A DNA stretch of 48,009 nt from a bacterium. GTDB taxonomy: Bacteria; Armatimonadota; UBA5829. The notes under the pieces were generated by a model that saw nothing but the letters and a program-made list of their open reading frames with translations, was not told where the DNA came from and searched no databases. Position 1 is the first letter of the stretch. The number at the start of each line of letters is the position of its first letter. Position numbers and translations under genes: made by a program. Location of the stretch: assembly GCA_021373255.1 (NCBI GenBank), contig JAJFTD010000004.1, positions 1 to 48,009 of the forward strand, written 5' to 3'. Shown here piece by piece: positions 18,198 through 41,751 of this stretch.

Positions 18198-18218
18198 TGA
18201 TGATTTGTCCTTATCACA

Positions 18219-21210: not shown

Positions 21211-21303
21211 TTCCGCTCCACTGCAATTTATGAGTATAGGGGGTGTGAACACCGCAGGTCGCGTGCGGGATAACCTCCGCGGCCTGCGCGTAAAATTCTT
21301 ACA

Positions 21304-21927: not shown

Positions 21928-21952
21928 TTATCCTCCATAATTCCAGAAGTCT

Positions 21953-22765: not shown

Positions 22766-22910
22766 ATCTCTCCACCTCTTCTTCCTTGATAACATTCGAG
22801 CCAAGCTCCATCTGGCTCCATTTTCCCCATTTTACCGATGCATTCTGAAGAAGTTATGAAGATGAAAAAGAATTAATGCATTTCTGTGGTGGGTATTGTG
22901 TGTATCCCTT

Positions 22911-23756: not shown

Positions 23757-25207
23757 AGATCACATCAATACGCACGCGGCTGACCCTGTGGAATATCTGC
23801 GTGATGGCGTTAATTCTGTTGTTGCTGTCGGTCGCTCTGAGATATTCGATCCAGTCGTACCTAATGTCAGCCGCCGATCATGAACTGGTTCATAGAGCGC
23901 ACCGCACAGCAGGCTTCGCAGCGCGCAACTCGAAAGAGTTCGTTGAAGACTTCCGCAAGATGGCACAAATCCAGCGCGATATGGGGCACAGTGCACATTT
24001 TAAGCGACAGCCATTGCGATTTTCACGAGCGTTTAACCGAGCAGGTCAGCAAACTGACCCATTCGGTGCGATATTGAAGACCAACGAGAAGCCTTGGGAC
24101 CGGAAGTTATTTATACAATCGCTGGTAGGCAAAACCGGGTTCTCAACAATAAAAGTCGATGACGAACTGACCAGGGTTTACTCACAACCACTGTTACGCA
24201 ACGGCGAAATATCCGGTGTGGTTCAGGCAGCCTACCCTCTCACTGAGCTGATGAGGTTTTTGGGTGGGTTCACGGTGGTGTTGGCTGTGTTTTTCCCATT
24301 CGCGCTGCTTACCGCTGGGCTGGGTGGAATGTTCTTGACCACGCGGTGGCTGCGACCGGTGCGTGAGATCACCCACACGGCTGAGGAAATAAGCGCGCGC
24401 GATCTATCTCGACGGCTTGGAATATCAGGAGACGATGAGTTCGCACAGCTCGCCTTGACCTTTAACCGGATGCTCGAGCGGCTGCAAAAAGCGTTCCAGC
24501 AGTTGGAACAGTCGGTGGAACAACAGAAGCGCTTCACAGCGGACGCTTCCCACGAGCTTCGTACACCATTAACCACCATCAAAGCTAACACGAGTCTCGC
24601 ATTGCGGCAGGCGAGGAGCGCCGAGGATTACAAAGAGGCGCTGGCGGCTGCGGACGGCGCAGCGGACGTGATGGACCACCTGATCCGTGACCTGCTATTG
24701 CTGGCAAGATCTGATGACGGTCAGCTTGTAACAGAGTTGGAGGCTGTGCCGGTGTCTGATGTGCTCCGGGAAGCTGTGACTCTGGTTGGTTGGAAAGACG
24801 GTCGGGCGGAAATCAGGGTGGAGATGGAAAATGAGTCGTTATCTGTAACAGGTAATGCTCATCACCTGACCCGGCTGGTTATGAACCTGTTGGACAACGC
24901 ACTGCGGCATACGCCGTCTGATGGGTTGATCACGCTGTCTGCTGCGGCAAACAATGGAGCAATAGTCCTGTGTGTAGCGGACAACGGCGAAGGCATCGCC
25001 CTGGAACACCTAGTGCATCTGGGAGAGCGGTTTTACCGCGTGGATAAATGCCGCGATCGCAAACACGGCGGCACGGGACTGGGCCTGGCAATCTGCCGGA
25101 GCATAGCCGAAGCTCACCATGGCTCGATATCGATAGAGAGCACAATTGGGCAAGGAACAGTTGTGACAGTCACGCTTCCGGAACCGCTGAAAGAATGTGT
25201 TATGTAA
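23753..25207 (+). CDS. membrane sensor histidine kinase
   Basis: The 484-residue kinase has membrane helices at about 11-29 and 170-196, which frame a ~140-residue periplasmic sensor domain. Then come HAMP (197-250), HisKA with FTADASHELRTPL and phospho-acceptor H267, and a HATPase domain with the N box MNLLDNALRHTP, G1 VADNGEG and G2 KHGGTGLGLAI. The layout is the CusS/HeavyN type. The start is a TTG whose last bases make the TGA of the regulator; GGAGGT lies 6 nt upstream, which makes the TTG credible. The sensor domain has no Cys or His cluster that names a ligand. Confidence 0.92.
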   Translation: MKITSIRTRLTLWNICVMALILLLLSVALRYSIQSYLMSAADHELVHRAHRTAGFAARNSKEFVEDFRKMAQIQRDMGHSAHFKRQPLRFSRAFNRAGQQTDPFGAILKTNEKPWDRKLFIQSLVGKTGFSTIKVDDELTRVYSQPLLRNGEISGVVQAAYPLTELMRFLGGFTVVLAVFFPFALLTAGLGGMFLTTRWLRPVREITHTAEEISARDLSRRLGISGDDEFAQLALTFNRMLERLQKAFQQLEQSVEQQKRFTADASHELRTPLTTIKANTSLALRQARSAEDYKEALAAADGAADVMDHLIRDLLLLARSDDGQLVTELEAVPVSDVLREAVTLVGWKDGRAEIRVEMENESLSVTGNAHHLTRLVMNLLDNALRHTPSDGLITLSAAANNGAIVLCVADNGEGIALEHLVHLGERFYRVDKCRDRKHGGTGLGLAICRSIAEAHHGSISIESTIGQGTVVTVTLPEPLKECVM

Positions 25208-25224: not shown

Positions 25225-26022
25225 TCACATTGAATTGGTTTTGCTAACAGCCGTCATGACATCGACGCCACGCTCTTCGAGGTGGGCTTTATCTGTCGGA
25301 AGTAACAGCGAATCTGTAACCACTGTATGCACCTGGTCGACAGTCGCATAACGCGCGAATGCTCGACTGCCGAACTTGCTGCTTTCGGTTACGACCACTA
25401 CCCGGTTTGCTATCCTTATCATTGCTTGTTCTAAACTGGAAATGTGCAGGTCATTGGAATAGAACCCCGTCTCACTATCGGCTCCGTCACATCCTATGAA
25501 GAGCACATCCACATGGATATCGTTTAGCAGTTTCTCCGTCAAAGGTCCATATACACTCGGGAAATCGTTCCGCAGAAAGCCCCCCAGAATCAAGATTTTG
25601 ATTGATGAGTTATACAGATCCTGCGCAGCACACAGTGATGTGGTCGCGACTGTGATATCGGCGTTCTGTGGCAGATGGCGGGCTACTTCCAACGCGGTTG
25701 TGCCCGTATCAACCATCACTGTCTGTCCCGGAGTTACAAGCCCCGCCGCGAGTTCACCTATCGCGGCTTTGGTTTGTGTGGCCTGATAGTTTGGCAGACC
25801 CATCTGAAGGAATCTAAGCTTGCCGGTGGAAACTGCTCCACCATGCGTACGTACAGCCAGCCCCTGCCTCTCAAGCTCGTCAAGATCCCGGCGGATGGTC
25901 ATCTCCGACACGTTGAATCGCAGGGCCAGTTCTCGTATGTTAACCTGCTGCGCTTGCTCTAGAAGCTCTAATATCGTTGTTTTGCGAGTATCCATAGCAT
26001 CCTTTATGTTAATATCTAACAT
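25225..26022 (-). CDS. DeoR-family transcriptional regulator (first copy)
   Basis: The ~265-residue regulator has an N-terminal winged helix-turn-helix (VNIRELALRFNVSEMTIRRD, then LDELERQG). A DeoRC effector domain of the sugar-phosphate isomerase fold follows (MVDTGTTALEVARHL, later FIGCDGADSETGFYSNDL). Such regulators bind phosphorylated sugar intermediates. I prefer the ATG at 26022 (GAGG 8 nt upstream) over the TTG at 26091, which falls in the promoter of the divergent aminotransferase gene. An inverted repeat covers its start codon, so autorepression is likely. It probably controls the divergent aminotransferase gene. Confidence 0.88.
   Translation of the reverse strand: MLDINIKDAMDTRKTTILELLEQAQQVNIRELALRFNVSEMTIRRDLDELERQGLAVRTHGGAVSTGKLRFLQMGLPNYQATQTKAAIGELAAGLVTPGQTVMVDTGTTALEVARHLPQNADITVATTSLCAAQDLYNSSIKILILGGFLRNDFPSVYGPLTEKLLNDIHVDVLFIGCDGADSETGFYSNDLHISSLEQAMIRIANRVVVVTESSKFGSRAFARYATVDQVHTVVTDSLLLPTDKAHLEERGVDVMTAVSKTNSM
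26006..26022. promoter_or_regulatory. palindromic operator candidate over the DeoR start codon
   Basis: ATGTTA-ATATC-TAACAT (26006-26022) is a 6-5-6 inverted repeat that includes the regulator's ATG. The 10-mer ATATTAACAT in it recurs in the opposite orientation at 26144-26153, between the divergent promoter and the aminotransferase start. Two matching sites in one divergent gap suggest binding by this regulator. Confidence 0.5.
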
Positions 26023-26084
26023 GAATGATACCTCATTGTTGTCCTGTATGTCAAGTAAATCAATAGTAATAACAGATATAGGTA

Positions 26085-26113
26085 TTGACAAGCGCTCTTA
26101 TGTGGGCTACCAT
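26085..26113 (+). promoter_or_regulatory. promoter of the aminotransferase gene
   Basis: TTGACA (26085-26090), a 17-nt spacer and TACCAT (26108-26113). The ATATTAACAT half-site at 26144-26153 lies just downstream of the expected RNA start, a good position for repression. Confidence 0.65.
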
Positions 26114-26186
26114 AGGTTACAGAGACTGTTATTTATCTCACATATATTAACATTAGGCTATAGTTTGAGCTTTGAGGAGGAGTATC

Positions 26187-27584
26187 ATGGCGCTTGAAAT
26201 CGACAAGCCTCTCAAGATGGGGCAGTATGACCCGACACCGTATCAGCTCGATCTGAATAAATGGCCGAATCTCGTGACCAGCGAGATCCCCGGACCGCTG
26301 AGCAAGGAGATGCACGCAAAGGCTTGCGAGTATATCCGTGGGCTTTCGGGGCAAGTGAGGCTGTTCCCGGTGGTTTTCGAGAAGGGCAAAGGCTGCACTC
26401 TTGAAGACATCGACGGCAACCAATACATCGATTTCTCCTCAGGCATCTATGTGACCACCCTTGGCCACTGCCACCCCAAGGTTTCGGAAGCTGTGGCAAA
26501 AGCCGCGAACACATTAATGAACGCGCATGATTTCACCACTCCGATCAAGGTCAAGCTCCTTGAAATGATGGGCAAAGTGCTGCCGGGCGATCTCAAGGGT
26601 GTTCAGCTTTATGATTCGGGCACGACCGCCGTTGAAGCCGGGCTTCGCACATGCCGCGCCGCCACCGGCAAGTATGAGTTCTTATCCTGCTTCAAAGATT
26701 TCCACGGTAAATCCGGCCACTCCATGAGCCTTGCCAATATGACAAAGCTCAATGGCTCCGGCAGGGCACAGGGTTTTTATATGGTTCCCAGGCCTGACAC
26801 TTACAGGCCATGGTGGACTCGTGAGGATGGTTCACTCGACACCGAGAAGTACCTCGAGTTCTACGATTCATTCATCACAAACGGCACCACAAACCAGATC
26901 GCAGCGTTCGTACTCGAACCTATCCAGGGCTGGGGCGGTTCTATCATACCGCCGGACGATTTCTTCCCGAAGCTCTCCAAATTCTGCAAAGAGCGAGGAA
27001 TCTTGTTGATGGCTGATGAGGTATTAACAAGCATGGGCCGAACCGGCAAGTATCTGTGCATGGAGCACTGGGGGGTAGTGCCAGACGTTGTAACACTTGG
27101 CAAAGGGTTCGGAAACGGCTTCCCTGTGACCGCGATGGTTGTGAGAGAAGAGTATGCAGATGCCGTAGATAAGATAAGCGCATCTACAAGTTATGGCGGA
27201 AACCCGATGGCTTGTGCTGCTGCTCTGGCATCCATTGAAGTGATTGAAGAAGAGGGTTTGTTGGAGCATGCGAGAGAATTGGAAGACCTCTTCAGGGCTA
27301 AGATGGCTGACTGGACAACGAAATACTCTATTGTTGGTGACTGCCGCGTTAAGGGCTGCCTGATGGGTGTGGAGCTTGTCAAGGATAAGAAAACCAAGGA
27401 GCCGTTCGATGAGGCCGGGAAACTAGTCTACCAAACCGCATTCAAAAAGGGCCTTGCATGGATTCCCGCAGGACATATCCTGCGAATGAGCCCACCGATC
27501 ATCATGCCCAACGAAGTAGCCGCGAAGGCGATGGACATCATCGAAGAGTCGATTGCTGAAGTTCAGGCAAAACTGGGTTATTAG
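26187..27584 (+). CDS. class III PLP-dependent aminotransferase
   Basis: The 465-residue protein has the class III layout: GTTAVEAGLRTCRAATG at 145-161 for cofactor phosphate, ADEV with D277 contacting the pyridine nitrogen, and GKGFGNGFP with Schiff-base K306. It resembles omega-amino acid, 4-aminobutyrate and dialkylglycine enzymes; the amino donor cannot be named from sequence. The ATG at 26187 is preceded by GAGGAGG 7 nt upstream, so the TTG at 26172 is not used. It is divergent from a DeoR-type regulator. An amino sugar or amino polyol could be the substrate given that regulator type, but this is a guess. Confidence 0.85.
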   Translation: MALEIDKPLKMGQYDPTPYQLDLNKWPNLVTSEIPGPLSKEMHAKACEYIRGLSGQVRLFPVVFEKGKGCTLEDIDGNQYIDFSSGIYVTTLGHCHPKVSEAVAKAANTLMNAHDFTTPIKVKLLEMMGKVLPGDLKGVQLYDSGTTAVEAGLRTCRAATGKYEFLSCFKDFHGKSGHSMSLANMTKLNGSGRAQGFYMVPRPDTYRPWWTREDGSLDTEKYLEFYDSFITNGTTNQIAAFVLEPIQGWGGSIIPPDDFFPKLSKFCKERGILLMADEVLTSMGRTGKYLCMEHWGVVPDVVTLGKGFGNGFPVTAMVVREEYADAVDKISASTSYGGNPMACAAALASIEVIEEEGLLEHARELEDLFRAKMADWTTKYSIVGDCRVKGCLMGVELVKDKKTKEPFDEAGKLVYQTAFKKGLAWIPAGHILRMSPPIIMPNEVAAKAMDIIEESIAEVQAKLGY

Positions 27585-27596
27585 GCTGCTTAGGGT

Positions 27597-27637
27597 TTGA
27601 AAGTCATAAGGTCGTAAGGTCAAAAGGTTGGGAAGGG
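27597..27637. repeat. GGTC-tract repeat, copy D
   Basis: Heptamers AAGTCAT, AAGGTCGT and AAGGTCAAAAGG end in TTGGGAAGGG. It is the same pattern as the copies at 8401, 9880 and 10243, here just past the aminotransferase stop. Confidence 0.65.
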
Positions 27638-27649
27638 ATGGTTGGTATA

Positions 27650-27924
27650 CTGCGGGAACGAGGCTGATAGGTAACCTCAGGTATGCAGCATCGTGAGTTC
27701 CCGCAGCTTTCGCTAACGTAAAGTAACACCGCCCGGCGGTTTCGGGAAAAGGGTTCGCTCAAACTTATCTTAGGTACTATCTCAGAGCACGATACTTCGG
27801 GACAAATTTTTCGTCCCGAAGTCCTGGCTCTTCGAAGTGCTTCGGGACAAAAAGCAGTCCCGAAGCATAATCTTGTATGTCGTCAGTACATTATCTGAGT
27901 TTGAGCGAAAGGGTTTCCCGAAAC
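27650..27924. repeat. nested palindromic intergenic element
   Basis: Four layers are seen. CTGCGGGAAC (27650-27659) faces GTTCCCGCAG (27697-27706). An outer pair at 27739-27767 and 27896-27924 shares GTTTCGGGAAA and TCGCTCAAACT around a short mismatch. Two successive CTTCGGGAC...GTCCCGAAG hairpins lie inside (27795-27821 and 27840-27865). The rest of the gap up to 28080 is GC-skewed filler with the TTCGCG repeats; I see no gene in it. It may be a miniature element or a strong RNA structure. Confidence 0.65.
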
Positions 27925-28080
27925 AACCTGTGTTAACATGGTACGCCCGGCGGCTTCGGCAGCTTCGCAGTCCGAAGCAACGTACGTTAACTCTTCGTCC
28001 CTTTTCGCGCTTTCGCTCCTTCGCGTTTTTCGCGATTAAAAGACCTCGCATACACTAAGTGATCAGAAAGGGATATGTAG

Positions 28081-29232
28081 ATGCAAGTTGTGCGTTTTGG
28101 CATAATCGGTTGTGGGCTGATGGGCAGGGAGTTCGCCAGCGCTGTGGCGCGCTGGTGCCACTTGCCTGATATGGATGTCAGACCTGAGATAGTGGCAATC
28201 TGCAATAGAAGTGAGAAGGCATTCCCATGGTTCGTGGACAATTTCGCATCTATTAGGCAGTCTACAACAGATTACAAAGAGCTTTTGGCCAATCCTGAGG
28301 TTGATGCAGTCTACTGCGCTGTGCCGCACAACCTCCACCAGCAGTTTTATTGCGACATCATCATAGCGGGCAAGCACATGATGGGCGAAAAACCGTTCGG
28401 CATAGATAAGGCTGCCAATGACGCCATTCTCGATTGCATCAAGGCTCACCCAGGTATCTTTGTCAGGTGTTCAAGCGAATTCCCATTTATCCCCGCTATG
28501 CAGCGGCTCTGCAATATGATCGAGCAGGGGGAGTTCGGAGAAATTATCGAGGTTAACACCGGTTTTGTGCACTCATCCGACATGGACACATCCAAACCCA
28601 TTAACTGGAAGCGGATGATTAAGTTCAATGGTGAATATGGTTGCATGGGTGATTTGGGAATGCATGCGTGCCATGTTCCATTCAGAGCAGGTTGGATGCC
28701 GAAGAATGTTCGAGCGATACTCTCTAATCTCGTCCCTGAACGTCCCGACGGCAAGGGTGAAATGGTTCCTTGTGAGACTTGGGACAACGCCACACTCCTG
28801 TGTGAGTGTATCAATCCCCTCGATGGCAAACCGTTTCCATGGACAATGAAAACCCAGAGGATAGCTCCCGGCGAGAAGGACAGTTGGTATATGGACTTCA
28901 TTGGGATGAAGAAGTGCGCCAGATTCAACTCAAAGAACACCAACTCCATTGAAATACTCGACTACACCAATGGCGAGGAGCAGGCATGGCAGGTTATCGA
29001 TATGGGCCATGAGACGGCATTTAAGAGCATAACCGGGGGTATTTTCGAATTCGGTTTCTCTGACTCGATCCTCCAGATGTGGGCTGCATATCTTTATGAA
29101 TTGACTCATGGCAAACCGATAAAGAAGTTCGCGGCGTGCGTTACTCCCGAAGAAACAGCCCTTAGCCACAAGCTGTTTACAGCGGCTCTGGAATCACAGA
29201 AAACAAAGACCACGGTGAAAACAGATGAATGA
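28081..29232 (+). CDS. Gfo/Idh/MocA-family NAD(P)-dependent oxidoreductase
   Basis: The 383-residue cytoplasmic dehydrogenase has a Rossmann motif FGIIGCGLMG at 6-15 and the catalytic lysine in GEKPFG (K104). The conserved histidine stretch is MGDLGMHACHVPF. Members oxidise sugars, inositols or sugar acids, often at C1 or C3. It is first in a four-gene unit with an AraA-like isomerase (8-nt overlap), a sugar kinase and an aldolase. This suggests that it prepares the substrate or handles a side product. AAAGGGAT lies upstream of the ATG; no clear promoter is seen. Confidence 0.87.
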   Translation: MQVVRFGIIGCGLMGREFASAVARWCHLPDMDVRPEIVAICNRSEKAFPWFVDNFASIRQSTTDYKELLANPEVDAVYCAVPHNLHQQFYCDIIIAGKHMMGEKPFGIDKAANDAILDCIKAHPGIFVRCSSEFPFIPAMQRLCNMIEQGEFGEIIEVNTGFVHSSDMDTSKPINWKRMIKFNGEYGCMGDLGMHACHVPFRAGWMPKNVRAILSNLVPERPDGKGEMVPCETWDNATLLCECINPLDGKPFPWTMKTQRIAPGEKDSWYMDFIGMKKCARFNSKNTNSIEILDYTNGEEQAWQVIDMGHETAFKSITGGIFEFGFSDSILQMWAAYLYELTHGKPIKKFAACVTPEETALSHKLFTAALESQKTKTTVKTDE

Positions 29233-30631
29233 GACGAAAGTGACAACGAGACCAAAAGTTGGCCTACTCCCATTCTATTTAGCCCTGTACGACCGGGTGG
29301 CTCCCGAAGAGAGGCCAAGGATCGATCAGTTCGCCGGCACCATTGCAAAAGAGCTTGAGAAACGCGGTTTGGAAGTCGAGCTTGCTCCCGTATGCAGGTT
29401 GAAAGATGAGTTCGCATCTGCAGTGTCTTTGTTTGAGAAAACCAGTGCCGACGCAATCGTGACATTACACATGGCATATTCACCGTCGCTTGAGTCAGCC
29501 AAGGTGCTCGCTGGTACGAATCTTCCAATCCTCGTGCTGGATACTTCCCCCACTTTTGAATTCGGCCCAGAGCAAGACCCCGCTGAGATCATGCATAACC
29601 ATGGCATACACGGCGTCCAGGATATGTGCAATCTTCTGATTCGCAATGGGAAGTCGTTCCAGATCGAAGCCGGGCACTGGGAACATTCTGACGTGATTGA
29701 TCGCATAGCCGTCTGGGCACGTGCGGCTCAGCTTGCTTCACGAATGCGCAGCGCTCGCGTCGGACGTATCGCAGAGCCTTTCCAAGGAATGGGTGACTTC
29801 GCTGTCCCGCCGGATGTGCTTCACGAAACAATGGGTGTCGAAACAGTGCCTGCGGACTTCGCGATGCTGCGGTCATTGTTGCCCGCGGAAGATGACCCAG
29901 ATGTGATTGCGGAGATGGAGTCTGACCTGGCTCGATTCTCTACCAACAACCTCGATATGGATGTGCATCGTAAGTCGGTGCGATCGTCTCTCGCTGTTCG
30001 ACGGTGGATGGAGCGTGAGCACTTAACAGCTTTCACAATGAACTTCGATAGCATCGACCGCTCGTCCGGCTTGGCGGCGCTTCCATTCCTTGAAGCGAGC
30101 AAAGCAATGGCGCGTGGGCAAGGTTATGCAGGTGAAGGCGATGTATTGACGGCAGCACTTGTGGGCACGCTGGCATCTGCCTATCCTGAGACGACTTTTA
30201 CAGAAATGTTTTGTGCTGACTGGGCGGGGGACAGGATTTTCTTGAGTCACATGGGTGAGCTCAATCCGGATCTTGTCGCAGGAAAAGCGGAACTTGTCGA
30301 AAAGCCTATGCCATTCCTCAATACTGATGCGCCCGCATTGGTGGTGGGCAGGTTAAAGGGCGGTGACGCTGTTTTCGTGAATCTCGCGCCAGGTTCGGAG
30401 AACACATTTACTCTCATACTCGTCCCTATAAAGATGCTGGGCGAAGGCAGGGAGAACATGCCCGCCACCGTGCGCGGCTGGTTCAAACCCCCAATGCCCG
30501 TCTCTGATTTCCTTGCAGCCTACAGCAGCGTCGGTGGAACCCATCACGCGGCAATTGTTTATAAAAACGTGATCGATGACCTAATACGTTTCGGTGAGCT
30601 TATGGGTTGGGACGTAGTGGTCCTGGAGTAG
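29225..30631 (+). CDS. L-arabinose isomerase-like sugar isomerase
   Basis: The 468-residue protein matches the AraA/FucI fold. Four residues line up with the Mn ligands of E. coli AraA: E304 in YAGEGD, E327 in TFTEMF, H342 in LSHMGEL and H440 or H441 in GGTHHA (E306, E333, H350, H450 there). It should therefore be an active aldose-ketose isomerase. Sequence outside these motifs is far from classical AraA, so the sugar is open. It overlaps the oxidoreductase by 8 nt and precedes a sugar kinase by 3 nt. The product order fits isomerisation, then phosphorylation, then aldol cleavage. Confidence 0.8.
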   Translation: MNETKVTTRPKVGLLPFYLALYDRVAPEERPRIDQFAGTIAKELEKRGLEVELAPVCRLKDEFASAVSLFEKTSADAIVTLHMAYSPSLESAKVLAGTNLPILVLDTSPTFEFGPEQDPAEIMHNHGIHGVQDMCNLLIRNGKSFQIEAGHWEHSDVIDRIAVWARAAQLASRMRSARVGRIAEPFQGMGDFAVPPDVLHETMGVETVPADFAMLRSLLPAEDDPDVIAEMESDLARFSTNNLDMDVHRKSVRSSLAVRRWMEREHLTAFTMNFDSIDRSSGLAALPFLEASKAMARGQGYAGEGDVLTAALVGTLASAYPETTFTEMFCADWAGDRIFLSHMGELNPDLVAGKAELVEKPMPFLNTDAPALVVGRLKGGDAVFVNLAPGSENTFTLILVPIKMLGEGRENMPATVRGWFKPPMPVSDFLAAYSSVGGTHHAAIVYKNVIDDLIRFGELMGWDVVVLE

Positions 30632-30634
30632 AAT

Positions 30635-32074
30635 ATGGCAATTTACCTGGGAGTGGATATCGGCACTACATCAGCGAAGTGCCTTGCGGTGGATGAGAAT
30701 GGCGCTGTGCTGGCACAGTCTCAACAGCCATACCCAATAATGCACCCGGCGCAAGGCTGGGCGGAACAGGACCCCGAAGATTATTGGCGTGCTCTGTCAG
30801 CCACGGTAAGGGGATGTGTATCCAAGTGCAAGGAGCTTGGGCGCGATGCAAGTGAGATCGCATCCATCGCCATGAGCACACAGGGAGACACACTGATTGT
30901 GACGGACGAGTCGGGCAAACCGCTGACATCGGCCATAAGCTGGATGGACACCCGGGGTGAGGTTGAGTGCGCCGAACTTTTATCTGAGGCAGACCAATCG
31001 TTCTGGTATAGAGAATCCGGCGCACTTTTATCGGTTATCGGTTCGGTTTGCAGCATTCGGTGGCTTGAGAAGAATAAGCCGGACATCATAAGTAATAAAC
31101 CGCACTATTGTTTTGTGCCGGATTTCCTTGCAAAGAGGCTTGTCGGAGAGTTTGTAATAGACATTTCCAGCGCTTCCTGGACACCCCTTTGCTCCCCATG
31201 CAGCAGAGCATGGTCGAACGCGGTATTGGAGCTACTTGGCATATCCCGGAGCGATGTTTCCGAGACAATGGAGTCCGGAGAGGTTATAGGTGAGATTAAG
31301 CCTGACATCGCATCGGAGTTGGGTCTTGCATCTGGAGTCAAGCTGATTGCTGGAGCGTTCGACCAGGCCGCTGCCGCATATGGCGTGGGAGCGAGCGTGG
31401 GCGGACGTGGTGTGCTCTCTTGCGGAACCGCATGGGTGCTGTATTCCGTGTCTTCGATGCCGCCTTTCGATGCATCTGAGTGCTTATCAATCTGCTGTCA
31501 TGTTAAGCCATCCGAATGGGGGTTGGTGCTGCCGTTTTCCGGTGGGTCGACATATGATTGGCTAAACCGAATGTTTACTCAGACAAATACTGCCCCGAGC
31601 GGGTCAAAGCTCCCGATATTCATCCCACACCTCTACGGTGGGCTCTCGCCGGATTGGCGGTCCGAATCCAGGGGAAGTCTTGTCGGCCTGACCATGTCGC
31701 ATACGCAAGAAGATATAAGGCTGGCACTGATGCGTGGAATCGCTTGTGAGGCAAGACGTAACATGGAAGCGGCTGAGCTCCTCTGTGGACGCGTGGAAAG
31801 TGTGAGAATGGTCGGTGGCGCTGGAAAGAGTGACATCTGGCCTCAGATGGTGAGTAACATCTTGAATAGACCGGTGGAATTGCCGGACTGCGTGGAGTCA
31901 GCTTGTTACGGCGCTGCCAAACTTGCCGCAGGAGAGGTCTCATCAGGATGGAGTGGCTTTGACAACGTCCGCCTATTCTCTCCTGTTGAAGGTAACGTCA
32001 GCGATGAACAACAGAATTATGACAGGTATATGCGGTTTTATCGAACTCTATTGTGGATTTATGCAAGCGAATAA
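30635..32074 (+). CDS. FGGY-family carbohydrate kinase
   Basis: The 479-residue kinase has the phosphate-binding GVDIGTTSAK at 6-15 and the catalytic aspartate D243 in IAGAFDQAAAAYG. The C-terminal ATP-binding glycine loop is MVGGAGKSDIWPQ. It resembles xylulokinase and AI-2 kinase (LsrK) rather than glycerol kinase. GGAG lies 7 nt before the ATG. Between an isomerase gene and a class I aldolase gene, it most likely phosphorylates the ketose (or an open-chain sugar) that the aldolase then cleaves. Cysteine content is high (for example LCSPCS), a minor oddity. Confidence 0.88.
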   Translation: MAIYLGVDIGTTSAKCLAVDENGAVLAQSQQPYPIMHPAQGWAEQDPEDYWRALSATVRGCVSKCKELGRDASEIASIAMSTQGDTLIVTDESGKPLTSAISWMDTRGEVECAELLSEADQSFWYRESGALLSVIGSVCSIRWLEKNKPDIISNKPHYCFVPDFLAKRLVGEFVIDISSASWTPLCSPCSRAWSNAVLELLGISRSDVSETMESGEVIGEIKPDIASELGLASGVKLIAGAFDQAAAAYGVGASVGGRGVLSCGTAWVLYSVSSMPPFDASECLSICCHVKPSEWGLVLPFSGGSTYDWLNRMFTQTNTAPSGSKLPIFIPHLYGGLSPDWRSESRGSLVGLTMSHTQEDIRLALMRGIACEARRNMEAAELLCGRVESVRMVGGAGKSDIWPQMVSNILNRPVELPDCVESACYGAAKLAAGEVSSGWSGFDNVRLFSPVEGNVSDEQQNYDRYMRFYRTLLWIYASE

Positions 32075-32096
32075 TTCAAAATAAGGGGTTAAGCAG

Positions 32097-32912
32097 TTGA
32101 CTGGAAAAGATATCAGATTTAACAGGCTATTTACTAACGAAGAGAATGCTGTGGTCGTCGCAGTGGACCACGGAATGTTTGACGGCCCTCTGCCGGGGAT
32201 GATCAATCTCCCTGAGGTGGTGAAGAAGATAGACTCTGGAGTAGATGCGGTTCTTCTCGCACCGGGTATGCTTGCCCACTGCGGCCACGCGTTCAACTAC
32301 AAGGGCGCGCCTATGGCAATGGTTCGCGTTAACTGGAGCAGCCACTTCTGCTTCCACTGGGACTATGATGAGGGTATATCCGTACCAGCGATCAACCCCG
32401 CCGATGCAGTTGCCGCCGGGGCCGACATCATACTCGTCTGCCTGACGCTCAAGACCGGCAGCGAGGCGGGTGATGCATCCAACATCGAAGTCTTCTGTGA
32501 TCTCGTGAACCAGGCGAAGAAGCTGGGCGTGCCGGTGCTGGGTGAATACTTCCCCGCAAGGCCCGACCGGCTTTCCCCTGATGAACTCCACGAACAGATC
32601 TACCGTGGCTGCCGGGTAATCGCAGAACTTGGCGCTGATTTAATAAAGACATTCTACACGCACAAATTCAACGAAGTAACCGAGGGTTGCCCTATTCCAA
32701 TCTTGGGCCTCGGGGCAGAAAAGACTCCGAAGCAGATTCAAGCCCTGGAGCTCGCCGAGCGGATTGTGCAGGGTGGTGGCAGAGGCGTCGTCTTCGGACG
32801 CAACGCTATCCAGGTTGCAAACCCTGTAGCTTTCCAAAAGGCGCTCTGTGACGTAGTGAAACGCGGAGTACCGGCTGCTGAGGTGGTAAAAACATACGGG
32901 CTTGAAGGTTAA
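32097..32912 (+). CDS. class I aldolase, DeoC/LsrF/FbaB-like
   Basis: The 271-residue TIM-barrel aldolase has the family mark AVDHG (22-26) and the Schiff-base lysine K184 in GADLIKTFYT. The phosphate-binding end includes GLGAEKTP and GGGRGVVFGRNA. This group covers archaeal-type fructose-bisphosphate aldolase, the AI-2 thiolase LsrF and aminoheptulosonate synthase. Since a FGGY kinase precedes it, the LsrK-LsrF pairing is a precedent, but the AraA-like isomerase points to a sugar. The start is a TTG with AAGGGG 8 nt upstream and no ATG nearby. A hairpin terminator follows. Confidence 0.85.
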   Translation: MTGKDIRFNRLFTNEENAVVVAVDHGMFDGPLPGMINLPEVVKKIDSGVDAVLLAPGMLAHCGHAFNYKGAPMAMVRVNWSSHFCFHWDYDEGISVPAINPADAVAAGADIILVCLTLKTGSEAGDASNIEVFCDLVNQAKKLGVPVLGEYFPARPDRLSPDELHEQIYRGCRVIAELGADLIKTFYTHKFNEVTEGCPIPILGLGAEKTPKQIQALELAERIVQGGGRGVVFGRNAIQVANPVAFQKALCDVVKRGVPAAEVVKTYGLEG

Positions 32913-32926
32913 TTCTCGATATACAT

Positions 32927-32952
32927 GCGGGTTAGGGGATGGCCTAACCCGC
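32927..32952. terminator. hairpin between convergent aldolase and UroD-like genes
   Basis: GCGGGTTAGG (32927-32936) pairs exactly with 32943-32952 around a 6-nt loop. A weak T-rich run (TGTATTTGCTT) follows on the plus strand. It lies 14 nt past the aldolase stop. Confidence 0.7.
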
Positions 32953-32982
32953 AACTGTATTTGCTTATATGTGCGTAAAAAA

Positions 32983-34116
32983 TCAACCGCGTCCGTGTGT
33001 TTGGTAGTACTTCAAACCCTCGATATATGTGCAGACATTTTCCCATGGGACGCCCGGCGCCATAGAGCTTGACAGAGCTAGGAATAACCCTGTCTTGGGA
33101 CCTTTCTCGACTAACCAGGCCATCTCTTGTTTTACATCTGAAGGCGTGCCCATCGGAAGCGTGCGGGTGACGCTTACCCCGGCTAAGATTATTAAGCTCT
33201 CACCGTCACGCGTCTTCATTGCGCAGATTTTCTCGTAGTCCATGCCATCTTCGTATTGGAAACCTTGAAAGCCCCTGATGCCACAATCGAGCAGGCGCGG
33301 AACCATCTCCATCAGGTTGCCGTCACAATGCCAGATCATCTTGACATCTGTCTTCAACATCGGCTCCAGGCACCGTGCAAAGTGTGGAAACCAGATCTTG
33401 TCCAGGCTCTTGATGTCAACAAGTGTTCCCCGGGAATCAGCCATGTCATGATCGAGCCGGTAGAGTGGAGGCAAGCCACCCTCGACATACGCCCTTGCGG
33501 CGGCACGGTTATTAGCCAGCCAGTAGTCAGCCTGCAGTGAAAAGTGCTTTTCTATGACATCGGGGTATAAGGCGTATGCACAAAAGTAGGGCACATACCC
33601 GTAATCACCATAAGCCAGGCCTGGAAAACCTATGAAGGCATAACCGGTTTTTAATATGGACGATCCGAGCTTGGATTGAATGCCTGATTCCATCTCAAGG
33701 ATCTGAGCGACCCGCGCGTCTTCGTCGAAGCTCTCCGCTTCAGACTTCAAACGAGGGAAAGCGACCCGCTCAAGATGCTCCACAACTGACTCAGGGGAAT
33801 CGATCACAATGCCATCAAGGACAACCTGTTCCGCCCCTGTTGTGGCACCGTGATCAGCGCCATCGTAGCCGTTGGCGCCCATTGTCAATGGGTTGTCCCA
33901 TAGATATTGGTCGACCAGGCAAGCATCCATAGCGTGCATCATAGCGAGATAGGTCTTTTCAGGATTCTTTAGGTAGCTGCCAGGTTCAGCACCCGCGATA
34001 CATTCGATATGCGCATGCTCCATAATGTTGCAGAAGTAGTGTGGAATGCCTTTTATGTTCTTCTGCAGAAGCGTATCAAGAGCCAATTGTGCTGTTTCTG
34101 TCTGAACTTGTATCAT
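32983..34116 (-). CDS. uroporphyrinogen decarboxylase (UroD) superfamily protein, first copy
   Basis: The 377-residue protein has the UroD/MtaA-type barrel with IWHCDGNLMEMVPRLLDCG at 261-279. H263 and C264 sit where corrinoid methyltransferases such as MtaA hold zinc. The true UroD N-terminal motif is absent, so it is not the haem enzyme. Such proteins are common in sugar loci of Armatimonadota-like and PVC bacteria, with unknown chemistry. The start at 34116 has GAGGAG 7 nt upstream. It lies downstream of the DeoR gene, probably co-transcribed, with an 11-bp inverted repeat in the 130-nt gap. No corrinoid protein is encoded nearby. Confidence 0.75.
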   Translation of the reverse strand: MIQVQTETAQLALDTLLQKNIKGIPHYFCNIMEHAHIECIAGAEPGSYLKNPEKTYLAMMHAMDACLVDQYLWDNPLTMGANGYDGADHGATTGAEQVVLDGIVIDSPESVVEHLERVAFPRLKSEAESFDEDARVAQILEMESGIQSKLGSSILKTGYAFIGFPGLAYGDYGYVPYFCAYALYPDVIEKHFSLQADYWLANNRAAARAYVEGGLPPLYRLDHDMADSRGTLVDIKSLDKIWFPHFARCLEPMLKTDVKMIWHCDGNLMEMVPRLLDCGIRGFQGFQYEDGMDYEKICAMKTRDGESLIILAGVSVTRTLPMGTPSDVKQEMAWLVEKGPKTGLFLALSSSMAPGVPWENVCTYIEGLKYYQTHGRG

Positions 34117-34129
34117 CCTACTTCTCCTC

Positions 34130-34188
34130 AACTACACAGATAGCTGTCTTCTATGGCGTCATGGGCATAATAGTGTTTCTGTGTAGTT
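34130..34188. promoter_or_regulatory. 11-bp inverted repeat in the DeoR-UroD gap
   Basis: AACTACACAGA (34130-34140) and TCTGTGTAGTT (34178-34188) are exact inverted repeats 37 nt apart. They end just before the ribosome site of the UroD-like gene. This could be an RNA hairpin that sets UroD-like expression, or a paired operator. Confidence 0.5.
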
Positions 34189-34246
34189 ACTGCACAGGTG
34201 TTAGCAACTCCCGAGCGCCTGTTCAGTTATTGAAGTATATTTCTAC

Positions 34247-35065
34247 CTAACCCTCGGAGCTATCGACATCCGGCTCAGCAAGCACAACCTGGACACCGCG
34301 CACGTTAAGCTCATCAACAAATCCGGGATTTGCATTGTTGTCAGTTATCAATACATCTATCAGACTCACAGGCCCAACCTTGGCATAGGAAAGCCTGCCG
34401 AGCTTCGATGAGTCGCAAAGCACAACAACCTTGCTGCTGTGTTCGATGATCTTTCTCTCAAGCAATGCAGCTTTTCGATCTATACTGGTTATGCCGTTAC
34501 GGATGTCGATAGCAGAAACCCCAATAAATGCTACATCCCACAACAGCATCTCCAAGGCTTCCTCAGATAGACTGCCATCTGTAGTATATGCATCTGATCG
34601 AAGCTGCCCACCAAGCAATCCAACTTGGACATGCTTATTGACTGTCAGGTCAAATGCTATCTCGGGTGATGTAGTAGTAGCACTGACTGGATGGACTTCG
34701 GGTATACGCATCGCAAACTGGGCTATTGTTGTACCGCCACCAATGAAGATCGAGCCAGTGGGAGGAAGGTAGTCGATTGCCACTCTTCCTATCCAGGACT
34801 TTTCACAACTGCGTTCGTTGCGAGTTTGAGAATAAGATGGGCGAACAGCACCTGTCTCTTTGACAATAGCGCCTCCATGTGAACGAACAACCTTGCCTTC
34901 CCGATCGAGTTCGTCCAAGTCCCGGCGGATAGTATCAGGTCCCACGCCCAGCATTTCAGCCAGCGCAGTTACGTTCACCGAGCCATTTTCCAGCGCCCAG
35001 TTATATATCTTTAGCCGCCGCTCCGCAGCGATCATACCATTGCCTGAAGATCGTTTATTACTCAT
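34247..35065 (-). CDS. DeoR-family transcriptional regulator (second copy)
   Basis: The 272-residue protein has an N-terminal helix-turn-helix (VNVTALAEMLGVGPDTIRRD, then LDELDREGKVVRSHGGA). The DeoRC domain follows, with GSIFIGGGTTIAQFAMRI and later VVLCDSSKLGRLSYA. It is a distant paralog of the regulator at 25225. Its promoter carries the 38-bp element that also precedes the amidohydrolase and Tat-Gfo/Idh genes. It is therefore the prime candidate for the factor that binds there and controls itself. The ATG at 35065 has GAAGGTGA upstream. Confidence 0.9.
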   Translation of the reverse strand: MSNKRSSGNGMIAAERRLKIYNWALENGSVNVTALAEMLGVGPDTIRRDLDELDREGKVVRSHGGAIVKETGAVRPSYSQTRNERSCEKSWIGRVAIDYLPPTGSIFIGGGTTIAQFAMRIPEVHPVSATTTSPEIAFDLTVNKHVQVGLLGGQLRSDAYTTDGSLSEEALEMLLWDVAFIGVSAIDIRNGITSIDRKAALLERKIIEHSSKVVVLCDSSKLGRLSYAKVGPVSLIDVLITDNNANPGFVDELNVRGVQVVLAEPDVDSSEG

Positions 35066-35118
35066 ACTAAGATTTCACCTTCGCTAAATAAGGTAAACCC
35101 ATCAGGATTACTGCAATA

Positions 35119-35162
35119 TTGATACCACACAATCCCGCAAGTGTCAATCGTGATTATGCGTT
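35119..35162 (-). promoter_or_regulatory. shared promoter-operator element, DeoR/UroD copy
   Basis: On the minus strand AACGCATAAT (35162-35153), 5 nt, TTGACA (35147-35142), a 17-nt spacer CTTGCGGGATTGTGTGG and TATCAA (35124-35119). The spacer and the upstream ACGCA block recur at fixed distance at 36778-36822 and 41752-41795. Confidence 0.75.
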
Positions 35163-35281
35163 ATGTTGCCGTTTTGTTGCATGGAGTTATTCCATGAATA
35201 CCACTTTCAGGCGGCCGGAAGCCGGTTTTAGCTTGATTGTGAATGGCGCTGGCATAAATTGCATACTAAGGTATAGCATTT

Positions 35282-35317
35282 TATATCCAGCGGCTCAGGC
35301 TCCGCTAGTCGGATATA
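35282..35317. repeat. bulged hairpin in the gene-free gap 35163-35474
   Basis: TATATCC-AGCGG (35282-35293) pairs with CCGCT (35302-35306) and GGATATA (35311-35317), with a 4-nt bulge. No coding region is seen in the rest of the gap. Confidence 0.45.
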
Positions 35318-35474
35318 GAGCGCAATCGGTTTAGCGGTTACCTTGACTCGTTGGACAGTCAGTAAAGCCTGGTCGTCTGCCTTTATCGTATACCAGTTAA
35401 CAAGTTTATCTATTCACCCAATAATATTTTTACATCAACACCTGTTAATTATATAGTCACCAGGTTCTTTTTAC

Positions 35475-36485
35475 CTACTTGCCCAAGAGCTTTATGGCAT
35501 TATGATAGACAATATTTTCGAATGCATCTTTGCCCAATCCCAAACGCTCCACAGCTTTTATTAATGCACGCAGTTCCTCATAAAGATAGCAAGTATACTG
35601 AGCTTCCTCATCCGGCGATTTTCGGTTGGTGTTCCAAGAATACGGCCCATCGGTATAGTTGATGTATTTTTCGCCAACATGTTCACGGCAGCCATGCATA
35701 AGTGTAATTGGAAGATCGCTTCCAAACAATATTCTTTCCGGGCCAACCAGATCAAGGGTGTATTGGAACACATCAGCATTCAAATTTGCAGCGATATCAA
35801 AATAGATGCTTTCCTTGTCCGCAAGTGCAGGTAGGCCTTTCTTTGCTGTCGGTAAGCAATAAGCTCGTCCGATATGGGCAACGATTAATTTGACTGATGG
35901 ATACTTATCTGCAATCTCGATAATCTCTCGCACGTTGTTTGGATCACCCAACCGACCAGCACGCGGAATATGAAGCATAAGAATACCCCCGAGCCTGTCC
36001 AGAACCTCGAGGTGTTTTCGCGGGAGAAAATCGAATATGCTGATCTCCTGAGTGTCCTGTGGAGCCAAATCAGGGTATGGCTTTATGCCAAGAAACCCTC
36101 TGTGCATAGCCTCTTCTATAACATATGGCTCATACTCCGGTCGGGTTACGAACAAAGCGTCCGCATTGTTACGGCTGTCACACATTCCAGAGAACACATA
36201 GTTGTTAACGCTTACTGTGTCAACTTCCTTATATACACTGCCAAACGCTAGAACAGACACATCCTGCTTCGGCAGCAGCAAACGGTACGCTTCACGCAAA
36301 TCCTGCCATGATTGATGGATTCCCACCTCAACCGGCCACAACACGCTCATGCGCTCCGGACTAATCGGTGCACTATGCTGAGGTAAACTTAAGTGGACAT
36401 GGATGTCGATCATCGACGGGGGCAGCCATTGGCTTAATTCACTTTCATATACATTTCTGTCTACCAGTCTATAATCAACGTCCAT
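35475..36485 (-). CDS. amidohydrolase-family (PF04909-type) metal-dependent hydrolase
   Basis: The 336-residue TIM-barrel enzyme has the metal motif DIHVH at 27-31, LHIP and VAHIGR for later histidine ligands, and the catalytic aspartate in FGSDLP. This fits amidohydrolase_2 proteins, which include sugar lactonases and decarboxylases. With a sugar-type regulon around it, a lactonase on an aldonolactone made by a Gfo/Idh dehydrogenase is a fair guess, no more. GAGAGG lies 6 nt before the ATG. The promoter candidate (36778-36822) implies a leader of ~285 nt. Confidence 0.8.
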   Translation of the reverse strand: MDVDYRLVDRNVYESELSQWLPPSMIDIHVHLSLPQHSAPISPERMSVLWPVEVGIHQSWQDLREAYRLLLPKQDVSVLAFGSVYKEVDTVSVNNYVFSGMCDSRNNADALFVTRPEYEPYVIEEAMHRGFLGIKPYPDLAPQDTQEISIFDFLPRKHLEVLDRLGGILMLHIPRAGRLGDPNNVREIIEIADKYPSVKLIVAHIGRAYCLPTAKKGLPALADKESIYFDIAANLNADVFQYTLDLVGPERILFGSDLPITLMHGCREHVGEKYINYTDGPYSWNTNRKSPDEEAQYTCYLYEELRALIKAVERLGLGKDAFENIVYHNAIKLLGK

Positions 36486-36777
36486 TTCGTATTCCTCTCA
36501 ATTACTGGTGTTGGACGTTCATAACTTGATATTTGCCTGATATAAGCTTACGCCCAGCACTCGTCTTCGTAATAGGACAAGGTTATCAAGTCATACAATG
36601 CCAACACCCAATTACTTGATCTGGCGCCCTCTGGTAATTCATCAAACGCACGAATCGTCGCTAGTCTCAGCGACACAGGTGTCTTTGAATACAATCTCTA
36701 GAACGGCGAGTATGATACAGTTGGTATCACTACGTTACGCCCCATATAAATACGGCATTAGACAGCCTGCCAACAAC

Positions 36778-36822
36778 ATAATAACCACACTATCCCGCAT
36801 ATGTCAACCGGTTTTTTTCGTT
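36778..36822 (-). promoter_or_regulatory. shared promoter-operator element, amidohydrolase copy
   Basis: On the minus strand AACGAAAAAA (36822-36813), then CCGG, TTGACA (36807-36802) and the spacer TATGCGGGATAGTGTGG. A -10 TATTAT (36783-36778) follows at 18 nt. The octamer AACCGGTT (36806-36813) overlaps the -35 edge and equals the LacI-site candidate at 45659-45666. Confidence 0.65.
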
Positions 36823-36928
36823 TTACAATATATAACGTCTCCCCACCCCGGCAAAAAACAAACAACTCCCCGAACTCAAGGTGAATCACAAGAGGGCTGT
36901 CTATCTGCTGATTACTGCAATATCCAAA

Positions 36929-36957
36929 TTGACAGAAGCAGTTATTTGTGGCATAAA
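36929..36957 (+). promoter_or_regulatory. promoter of the GxGYxYP gene
   Basis: TTGACA (36929-36934), a 17-nt spacer and CATAAA (36952-36957). The leader to the ATG at 37015 is about 50 nt. Apart from the two opposed promoters, the gap 36486-37014 holds nothing that I can name. Confidence 0.6.
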
Positions 36958-37014
36958 TGCATTTATTAGGCAGCCCGGTTATCAAATCGACTGCGCCGGT
37001 TGGAGAGTGATGTA

Positions 37015-40000
37015 ATGCAAACGAAGAACCGTAATGCAATTATTTTCTTGATAGTGGTTATCGCTGTAGGAACACTGAGTTGCACATGCGCTTTAGCTGA
37101 TAAACCTGTTATCTATCACGTGGATCTACGTTATACCTTGACCATGGCATCAGCAGCAGAGTGCTATGATATTCGTCATACTGCCGTGTGCGTACAGGGG
37201 CTGGTCAATAGGGAATCACCACGGGTATTTTTATCTTTCTCTAATGATGATATTGCCTGGCTGGATAGAATCAGGGAAGCAGGTGGGCTTTGTGAGGGAT
37301 GGGAAGTTAAAGCCATAACTTATGAGCAATTATTCACGATATTCCGCCATTACATCAATGGCGTGGTATTCTATGACCCAGATCCTGCTACTGGTGCAAT
37401 ATCAACAAGCCTGGTCGCAACAACGGTTGCCGGTGTGGAGGGTGGAATAGCACTTCGTAAAGACACCGCATCAAGCACTTGTAACTACCTTATAAATACA
37501 CTGGGCTTGCCGGTGCTTGTGGATCTTGCAGGCAAATTCACTGGAACCGGAACAATATGGGGCACAACAACCCCATCCACAGGCAGCGCGAAATGCGATG
37601 CTTATGTCTGGGCTAAACAGAAATATATCGATACTGGAAGATGTAACCCAGCTTTGCTATCAAATACACTTGATCTTGTCGGGGTCAAAATAGAGCCTTA
37701 TGACAAGCGATTTTATGCTCAACTCTTTAACCTCGATTATATAGTAAGCAAAAAGGGATTTTGCCTTGAGCTCTCCCCCTGGGCAGATGAAGCGCCAAGT
37801 GACGACCTCAATCAACCGCTGGGAACCGACCTCAATACCCTCAAGTCTATTCTAAATGCATGTAACCAGCAGACCGGACAGAGCAAGATAATAAAGATGT
37901 GCGGTTACCCCAACTGGCATATGAAGTATACAAATTGGGAGGACGTTGGTGGCAAACATGATCCGGTCGCGTTGGAGTGGGAGTTCATAAGGATTCTTAC
38001 CGCCTATAACACTTACCTGGATACCGACGCTGGTTTTCCCATGATGAATGCATCATTCTATACAGGTTTGCTGCCGGAGATGCACAGCCGCCATTATGTT
38101 CAAAACCCACCACCCACCTACAACGACATGGTTTCTCGCGGCCTTATCACCAGCACAGGCAGTGTACCAAAAGGCAATTATGTGATGATAGGCATGGGCG
38201 ATTATGATGGTTCATCGTGGGTAATGGATCTCCTTGCTAATCCGGGTGGCGCATATGATGATCCGAACAAACAGTATGTATACTGCAACTGGGGAGTTGA
38301 CCCGAATGCTGTAGATCGCACAAGTGTTGCGTTTGATTATATGTATCGCCATAAAACTGACAAAGATTACTTCATTGCATGGGACTCAGGTGCGGGTTAT
38401 ATTAATCCTGCGCAGTTGTATGGAACCAGAGATCCGTCGAATTATCCCAGTGGAGTCGGTATCTGGCAAAAGCACTGTACAGAATACTATCGCTTCCTTG
38501 ACTACTCTATAACTGCCTGGCTACTGAATGGAAATTTCGCCACCACACCAGAATGCTGCTCATATTACACCCAGTTCAGCGGCGATGGCATAGGTGTTTG
38601 GCAATCATCTAATGTAAGCACTCCTTCTTTGATTGATAACATACCGATCAGCTCAGGAACTGATACTGCAAATTCAATAATCAACTATTCCACTGGAGTC
38701 AATTTTAGATGGTATCGAATGACACCACTGACAAAACCGTCCGATCTGAAAACCCTCCAAGATGGTTATCCATATAATAATCATCGGTTTTTGGACGCTT
38801 ACACATACAACTACCTGATGCGCTATTGTCTCGGCGGGTCTAATAACTATCGCGAAGCCTGGGTTAATGAGACCACTCCTCGTATTATGAAAACAGGCCA
38901 GACTTACAGTGTGGCTGTGACTGTCAGGAACGACGGTTGGGACACATGGAGTGAAGCCGGTAGCTACAGGCTCGCGTATGCGATAGTCAATAAAGATGCG
39001 ACACCTGTTTGTGCCGATTATGACTCACGCGGCAGGTTCCAGATCCCCTCGGGAAGTATAGCTCCTGGGCAGAGTGTTACATTCACGGTAGGCGTGGTCG
39101 CGCCATCGACGCCAGGCACGTATGATCTCTATTATGACATTGTTCGTGACGGCACCACATGGTTCAGGGAGCAGAACAATCTGGAGTGCAAGAAGACAAT
39201 CATTGTTGTAGCTGACCCGCTGTCGATCGATACCGACGGTGACGGCACACCCGATGTGACCGAGGAGGCTGAAGGCACTCTATACTGGCATGCTGGAGAT
39301 AAATATACTCTTGGGCCAGTGATGACGTCTGTTCCATCTGATGCTGGTGATTATACTAACACATCTATGAGATTTACCTGGGGTGCGGCAACAGATACAG
39401 AGTTCAATGTGGCGGGGTATTACTGCATGGTCGGCACTACACCCGGTGGAAGTGATCTATATAGTGGCTACGTCGGTAATGTTCGCGCTGTATCAATCCC
39501 CGGTGGCGAAAGTGGAAAAACGTATTATGGCACTATTCAAGCAGTAAATGATGCCGGATATTTCGGTAATGGATCTACAAGCAATGGGATCACAATCGAT
39601 TCCACCGCTCCGAGTGTACCTGCTATGCCAACTGATGGAGGACTTGTAACTGCCTCACCGTCAATCACTTTTAACTGGACACATTCCACTGACGCGCTGT
39701 CAGGCATTGATAGTTATAACTGTAGAATAGGAACAACGTATAATGGCAGTGATGTGTTCCTTGGGAACATTGGGAATATGCTCAGCAAGACGATCACAGG
39801 CATCTATGGCAAGAGATATTACTGCAGTGTTCAGGCAAAGGACAAAGCAAAGAACCTCAGTTCCTGGTCTGTCTGCAGTGATGGTATTCTCTTGCAAGAG
39901 AACGCTGATAAGAGTATCGATTATGTGAAAAGCCTGCAGAATCAATCGGCAGTAGGGCTTATTTCTAAAGAAGTGACGGCGATATTCGGCAATTGCATAT

Positions 40001-40164: not shown

Positions 40165-40234
40165 CTGATAACACCAGCTAATAGTATTTAGGCTGGTTGT
40201 ATCTCGTCCGCTTTGGCTATTGCGCAACGTATTT

Positions 40235-40376: not shown

Positions 40377-40415
40377 GTATGCCGAACAAAGTATTACGAG
40401 TTGCTGTCTGTTGTG

Positions 40416-41678: not shown

Positions 41679-41751
41679 CTTCCATCCTCGACAGGTCTTC
41701 TGTAAAGAAGACTGCATTGCGATACGTGCCACAACATGCATCTACGGCATG

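Follow-up and report, generated by a model that had tools for sequence, protein, structure and literature searches.

A conserved isomerase–kinase–aldolase gene cluster of an Armatimonadota bacterium, possibly for the breakdown of a nitrogen-bearing carbohydrate

Introduction

Among described pathways, the sulfo-Embden-Meyerhof-Parnas (sulfo-EMP) type of sulfoglycolysis follows an isomerase–kinase–aldolase logic. Its aldolase YihT is a class I enzyme, and in the sulfo-EMP2 variant SqvD belongs to PF02952, SqiK to PF00365 and SqiA to PF01116 (PMC9594981). Here we describe a gene cluster with the same logic in a stretch of 48,009 nucleotides from a bacterium of the Armatimonadota (lineage UBA5829; assembly GCA_021373255.1, contig JAJFTD010000004.1, positions 1 to 48,009), referred to below as the window. 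A variant of sulfoglycolysis would match the cluster in reaction order, and YihT would match in aldolase class. The enzyme families of the window, however, differ from those of SqvD, SqiK and SqiA, and neither a sulfoquinovosidase nor SqvB nor a sulfolactaldehyde enzyme was recognized nearby. Membership in sulfo-EMP2 was rejected on the difference in families, and we consider a sulfoglycolytic role very improbable.

The cluster is very probably one functional unit for the breakdown of a carbohydrate. We propose, at slightly less than even confidence, that it is a DeoR-controlled catabolic cluster for a probably nitrogen-bearing carbohydrate, i.e. an amino sugar, an aminocyclitol or a similar compound.

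The gene cluster and its conservation

The core of the cluster comprises four co-directional open reading frames on the plus strand (28081–29232, 29225–30631, 30635–32074 and 32097–32912), which are joined by an 8-bp overlap and gaps of 3 bp and 22 bp. An earlier note, made from the letters alone, had described tightly packed genes for a Gfo/Idh dehydrogenase, an AraA-fold isomerase, an FGGY kinase and an LsrF-type class I aldolase. Pfam searches confirmed each of the four families, and profile alignments together with the conservation in relatives bore out that the isomerase metal ligands, the kinase aspartate and the aldolase lysine are kept. The description of this operon as complete did not hold, because it missed the adjoining recurrent partners: an aminotransferase, an amidohydrolase, a protein of the uroporphyrinogen decarboxylase (UROD) fold and two DeoR genes. 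Likewise, the statement that neither a transporter nor a dedicated regulator adjoins was correct for transporters, none of which lies inside the cluster, and wrong for regulators, since two DeoR genes flank it. The unit is larger than four genes. It extends over 25225–36485 together with an associated Gfo/Idh gene at 40416–41741 and contains about ten genes:

25225–26091, minus strand: DeoR-family regulator 1 (PF00455/PF08220), divergent from the aminotransferase gene
26172–27584, plus strand: class III pyridoxal phosphate (PLP) aminotransferase, type 1 (PF00202, E-value 1e-94); probable ATG start at 26187
27739–28000, no strand: repeat insertion between the aminotransferase and Gfo/Idh genes, a palindrome resembling a miniature inverted-repeat transposable element (MITE) plus a second short repeat
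28081–29232, plus strand: Gfo/Idh/MocA dehydrogenase GFO1 (PF01408/PF22725; GFO_IDH_MocA 7e-15)
29225–30631, plus strand: AraA-fold aldose-ketose isomerase (PF11762/PF24856/PF02610)
30635–32074, plus strand: FGGY sugar kinase (PF00370/PF02782; closest model xylulokinase)
32097–32912, plus strand: DhnA/LsrF-type class I aldolase (PF01791), TTG start
32926–32953, no strand: hairpin with an 11-bp stem, possible terminator between convergent gene groups
32983–34131, minus strand: UROD-fold protein of the URO-D/MtaA family (PF01208, 8e-7)
34247–35065, minus strand: DeoR-family regulator 2 (PF00455/PF08220)
35475–36485, minus strand: amidohydrolase-2 family protein (PF04909)
40416–41741, minus strand: Gfo/Idh protein GFO2 with a twin-arginine translocation (TAT) signal (PF01408)

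When about 85,000 species genomes were searched with the isomerase, 220 relatives emerged, of which the best 80 were fetched. They are spread over Armatimonadota, Lentisphaerae, Kiritimatiellae, Omnitrophota, Spirochaetes, Clostridia, Paenibacillus and others. Paenibacillus agaridevorans, Cohnella phaseoli and Oligosphaera ethanolica are named bacteria in which the cluster occurs. Partners were counted at 82 isomerase loci, the window included, by searching profiles of the neighbour families on stop-to-stop frames; many contigs are short and the counts are therefore lower bounds. The amidohydrolase was the most frequent partner (55/82), followed by the FGGY kinase (53/82) and Gfo/Idh proteins (51/82). 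A class III aminotransferase was present at 37 of the loci and a DeoR regulator at 25, while the DhnA aldolase, at 22, was less common than the amidohydrolase; UROD-fold proteins occurred at 14. Every recurrent partner family is found in the window within 25225–41741, and isomerase, kinase and aldolase recur together at loci of other genomes, as the earlier note would lead one to expect.

Gene orders are given below with the abbreviations AT (aminotransferase), ISO (isomerase), KIN (kinase), ALD (aldolase), AMH (amidohydrolase), GFO (Gfo/Idh) and URO (UROD-fold), and individual loci and genomes with L and G numbers. Two single-contig genomes carry the orders AT-ISO-KIN-ALD (L091) and AMH-GFO-AT-ISO-KIN-ALD (L092). 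The occurrence of AT-ISO-KIN-ALD in orthologous operons of a single-contig relative argues that the arrangement in the window is not due to chance. The neighbourhoods thus do not refute the linkage of the core genes, although the set of four can be incomplete: the sister genomes G002 and G003 show AT-GFO-ISO-ALD without a kinase at that place. In G003 the whole set is split between this group (L006) and a second one, URO-GFO2-AMH (L089); G002 has the same split, its GFO2-AMH pair lying where a contig ends (L093).

Within the phylum, 57 of 221 genomes contain the isomerase and 58 the amidohydrolase. Both occur in 52 genomes, and 5 and 6 genomes have only one of the two, respectively (Fisher p ~1e-37). 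In 29 genomes the two genes share a contig and are no more than about 10 kb apart. The isomerase also co-occurs with the aminotransferase (p ~2e-20) and with the aldolase (p ~4e-20) in the same 221 genomes. Genome kinship inflates all of these p-values; the physical adjacency across phyla is independent of them.

Isomerase, kinase and aldolase

The isomerase contains the C-terminal, central and N-terminal AraA domains (Pfam E-values of 5e-11, 1e-9 and 4e-5, respectively). In a profile alignment its residues E304, E327, H342 and H441 correspond to E306, E333, H350 and H450 of Escherichia coli AraA (PDB entry 2ajt), the metal ligands of that enzyme; among 76 relatives, conservation reaches at least 95% at each of these positions. 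The protein therefore belongs to the AraA superfamily by both domains and ligands, and fold-level annotation would tend to label it as an arabinose isomerase. While fold and metal ligands are shared with E. coli AraA, the partner genes differ, and LHxAYSPSLES stands where AraA has the segment around HTFSPAKMW. Orthology to standard sugar enzymes was judged against curated models and the PDB; with the L-arabinose isomerase equivalog NF002795 the isomerase scored 98.5 bits, far below the cut-off of 622.

The kinase is an FGGY enzyme (FGGY_N 4e-56, FGGY_C 2e-21) with the catalytic aspartate D243, a residue kept by 95% or more of the 52 kinases compared. Its closest model is that of xylulokinase XylB, with which it shares the domains and the catalytic aspartate; its score against that model (TIGR01312) was 281.6 bits at a cut-off of 380.25. 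It also stayed below the cut-offs for fuculokinase (137/471), rhamnulokinase (67/528), ribulokinase (98/428) and the autoinducer-2 (AI-2) kinase (136/528), and hence below every specificity cut-off tested. To the kinases of other clusters it is mostly 24–34% identical (52% in L016).

The aldolase matches the DeoC/LacD family (2e-14), and its TTG start aligns with the ATG starts of its relatives. Lys184 is invariant in its family and aligns with the Schiff-base lysine of LsrF (alanine in entry 4p2v), which makes it a DhnA-type class I aldolase. Fold, Schiff-base lysine and a GRN motif are common to this enzyme, LsrF and MJ0400. It forms a subfamily of its own, however, with an invariant E150 and with GLGA in place of the AGG of LsrF/MJ0400-type enzymes. 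The scores were 113 bits for class I fructose-bisphosphate aldolase (cut-off 430), 121 for ADH synthase (299) and 117 for LsrF (297). Since all tested NCBIfam specificity models remained below their cut-offs, none of these enzyme names can be assigned to the proteins of the window.

These results bear on three alternative functions. A standard sugar route (for L-arabinose, L-fucose, L-rhamnose or D-tagatose) in an unusual gene neighbourhood would agree with xylulokinase as the closest model of the kinase and with the isomerase being the sole AraA-domain protein found in the genome. We regard it as quite improbable, because the cut-offs for AraA, XylB, fuculokinase, rhamnulokinase and ribulokinase are all missed, the cluster has neither a class II aldolase nor an epimerase inside it, and pairs of a class II aldolase gene with an FGGY gene are found at other sites, namely on contigs C7 and C120. 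The classical routes were rejected on the missed cut-offs and on the araBD-like genes elsewhere in the genome; these, like the rhamnulose-like genes (rhamnulokinase- and class II aldolase-like), were recognized from family matches only. The earlier suggestion of a pathway other than the classical arabinose, fucose or rhamnose routes is thereby supported, and no known pathway was found that matches the cluster.

Its second suggestion, a resemblance to AI-2 processing, fared worse. An LsrF-like aldolase and an FGGY kinase are indeed co-located, but both missed the LsrF and LsrK equivalogs by a wide margin, on which ground this candidate was rejected. The Lsr system, moreover, has no place for an isomerase or an aminotransferase, and no LsrG-like or LsrACDB-like gene was recognized here. 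An Lsr-type function is hardly credible.

The third alternative is a biosynthetic cluster in which aldolase and aminotransferase run forward, so that an amino sugar or an aminocyclitol is made. By sequence, the aldolase is nearest to MJ0400, which builds an amino compound, and to the ADH-synthase models, and GNAT acetyltransferases are present in six loci. On the other hand, many of the relatives are accompanied by DeoR regulators, by glycosidases and by sugar transporters of the ABC or SSF type, and neither a glycosyl- nor a nucleotidyltransferase was recognized among the recurrent partners, which makes this direction improbable.

Aminotransferase

The gene upstream of GFO1 encodes a class III aminotransferase according to its PF00202 domain and its PLP-binding lysine, K311, which is conserved in 34 relatives. 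It has both in common with GABA (γ-aminobutyrate) aminotransferases and the archaeal type represented by PDB entry 7vno, but it scores below the curated cut-offs. EPxQGE is a motif of GABA aminotransferases; in the window protein a tryptophan replaces the second glutamate.

Class III aminotransferases are rare in the organism, with four in its 4.19-Mb genome. Orthologs with 82–90% identity occur only in genomes that carry the isomerase, and in eight of nine cases (window included) the gene is adjacent to the isomerase or one gene away. A control of near and far densities carries no information on the aminotransferase, which often lies about 6 kb from the isomerase. In other clades the same isomerase family is adjoined by a second type of aminotransferase, which belongs to PF00202 as well and keeps the PLP lysine. 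The two types are only about 20% identical and have different active-site motifs. One spirochaetal locus (L054, Spirochaetales) contains both types together with two isomerase-family matches.

The aminotransferase gene and GFO1 are 496 bp apart in the window, as compared to about 20 bp in a relative (L005). The gap contains an imperfect MITE-like palindrome at approximately 27739–27927 with the ends TTCGCTCAAACT/AGTTTGAGCGAA, of which the genome has about ten long copies, and a second short repeat with many genome copies at approximately 27931–28000. Together the repeats of the gap gave 51 matches in the genome. As the gap holds repeats and the spacing in the relative is short, the gap results from repeats inserted into an otherwise tight operon.

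An alanine dehydrogenase gene lies beside the aminotransferase in three Paenibacillus relatives (L021, L027 and L053; in L021 TIGR00518 scored above its cut-off), and a gene of the glutamate dehydrogenase family follows the aldolase in L010. These neighbours, and likewise an OCD/mu-crystallin gene in the split amidohydrolase locus L095, would fit a transamination whose acceptor is recycled. Either direction would be compatible, deamination being the natural one in a catabolic setting. The recruitment of two unrelated aminotransferase types, together with the alanine and glutamate dehydrogenase neighbours, suggests a nitrogenous substrate, for which we see an even chance.

Several observations weigh against the proposed function. 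No aminotransferase was found nearby at 45 of the 82 loci, though many contigs are short, and alanine or glutamate dehydrogenases occur in four loci only. Loci with the type 2 aminotransferase mostly lack the DhnA aldolase, so that the isomerase family may not be confined to a single substrate. The class III fold also covers racemases, decarboxylases and phospho-lyases, and the sources searched gave no characterized function for any member of the cluster. Alternatively, the substrate could be free of nitrogen, either a sugar of a rare or branched kind or a sugar acid. The aminotransferase would then act on nothing but the aldolase product, an aldehyde or keto acid, and serve as a redox sink or make an amino acid; or it would be a lyase or racemase. 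Several loci (e.g. L015, L020 and L036) do combine isomerase, kinase, amidohydrolase and aldolase without an aminotransferase, other reactions within the fold are available, and the dehydrogenases would suit amination equally well. It is less easily reconciled with an aminotransferase directly beside the isomerase in single-contig genomes and with two unrelated aminotransferases at the same place. We consider a nitrogen-free substrate doubtful, though far from negligible.

Amidohydrolase, Gfo/Idh and UROD-fold proteins

The predicted model of the amidohydrolase (mean predicted local distance difference test, pLDDT, 94.7) shows the PF04909 barrel. The protein passes the Pfam cut-off and keeps the HxH motif, Lys135, His172, His204, Asp257 and two arginines. 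It shares the TIM barrel and the HxH...H...H...D pattern with LigW, IDCase, LigI and COG3618 at identities of at most 19%, whereas the invariant Lys135, Arg178 and Arg207 set it apart from the decarboxylases and lactonases of PF04909. The HxH/H/H/D set suggests a metal site, and the three basic residues suggest an anionic substrate. A fold comparison placed the protein equally close to decarboxylases and lactonases, which counts as a further point against the proposed function.

GFO1 is 57–72% identical to Gfo/Idh proteins adjoining the isomerase in L005, L039 and L042. GFO2, in turn, is 56–66% identical to proteins encoded next to the amidohydrolase in five relative regions (L089 and L092–L095), one of which (L095), a split amidohydrolase locus, also contains an OCD/mu-crystallin gene.

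The model of the UROD-fold protein (pLDDT 84) superimposed best with UROD (Z 21.4, root-mean-square deviation 3.8 for 313 aligned residues) and second best with the MtaA-like entry 4ay7 (Z 17.9, 4.5 for 308). The identities are only 10–16%, so no function follows from this ranking. The MtaA/CmuA methyltransferase model (TIGR01463) gave 25 bits at a cut-off of 235. The corresponding partners in relatives are 53–66% identical to the window protein.

Proposed pathway

Enzyme families, retained catalytic residues and genomic linkage across phyla are direct observations, from which we infer the following steps. The class III aminotransferase would first take off the amino group, with pyruvate or 2-oxoglutarate as its acceptor. 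The Gfo/Idh enzymes might then oxidize or reduce the matching hydroxyl or keto position, so that an amino-bearing sugar would be turned into an ordinary or rare aldose upstream of the isomerase. In a third step, the amidohydrolase could open a lactone or remove a carboxylate from an anionic intermediate. The isomerase would convert the aldose to a ketose, which would be phosphorylated by the kinase. Finally, the class I aldolase would form a Schiff base with the ketose phosphate and split it, plausibly into dihydroxyacetone phosphate and an aldehyde. The last three steps are much better supported than the first three. Three clostridial relatives carry genes of the triosephosphate isomerase family with the isomerase; these neighbours fit a triose phosphate product, although a DhnA aldolase is absent from their loci. 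YjbQ (UPF0047)-like proteins are encoded in the clostridial loci L063, L065, L079 and L049, three of them adjoining a triosephosphate isomerase family gene. Genes for ABC, SSF and MFS transporters and for GH2, GH5/39 and GH78 enzymes near the relatives are too varied to indicate a substrate. In L063, L065, L066 and L068, genes for binding proteins adjoin that of the isomerase.

Other features of the window

A promoter-like site at 26085–26113 (plus strand), a weak match, precedes the aminotransferase gene. The hairpin at 32926–32953 is suggestive of a terminator, although terminator-like sites are no more common than in shuffled sequences. An Rfam search of the window found no RNA, and the words common to the intergenic regions compared included no convincing DeoR operator.

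A putative glycoside hydrolase of the GxGYxYP type (1054 residues) is encoded at 37000–40164, between the amidohydrolase and GFO2 and on the opposite strand. A second sugar gene group at 42000–47957 contains a GH36-like protein, a LacI regulator, another UROD-fold gene and a protein of 484 residues that matches nothing but the FucI C-terminal domain, and this weakly. On the other side, an efflux-type group (16255–22804; MacB-like permease, ABC ATPase, HlyD-type fusion protein and OEP outer membrane protein) is followed by a CopR/CopS-like two-component pair (23070–25207).

Significance

A search of the literature, mostly without subscription papers, found no description of this gene combination or chemistry. 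More tentatively still, we suggest a widespread, hitherto undescribed pathway for amino sugars or aminocyclitols, common to Armatimonadota, PVC (Planctomycetes-Verrucomicrobia-Chlamydiae) groups, Spirochaetes, Clostridia and Paenibacillus. In it an aminotransferase, of two unrelated, independently recruited types, and Gfo/Idh enzymes would strip the nitrogen ahead of the isomerase–kinase–aldolase chain cleavage, with the PF04909 hydrolase as a near-constant partner. At least 220 loci in a species-level genome collection carry the isomerase, in bacteria from soil, sediment, digesters, rumen and gut, and its conserved partners provide a concrete, testable set of enzymes. If the substrate does carry nitrogen, the cluster would represent an unrecorded route on which bacteria recover the carbon as well as the nitrogen of an amino-bearing carbohydrate.

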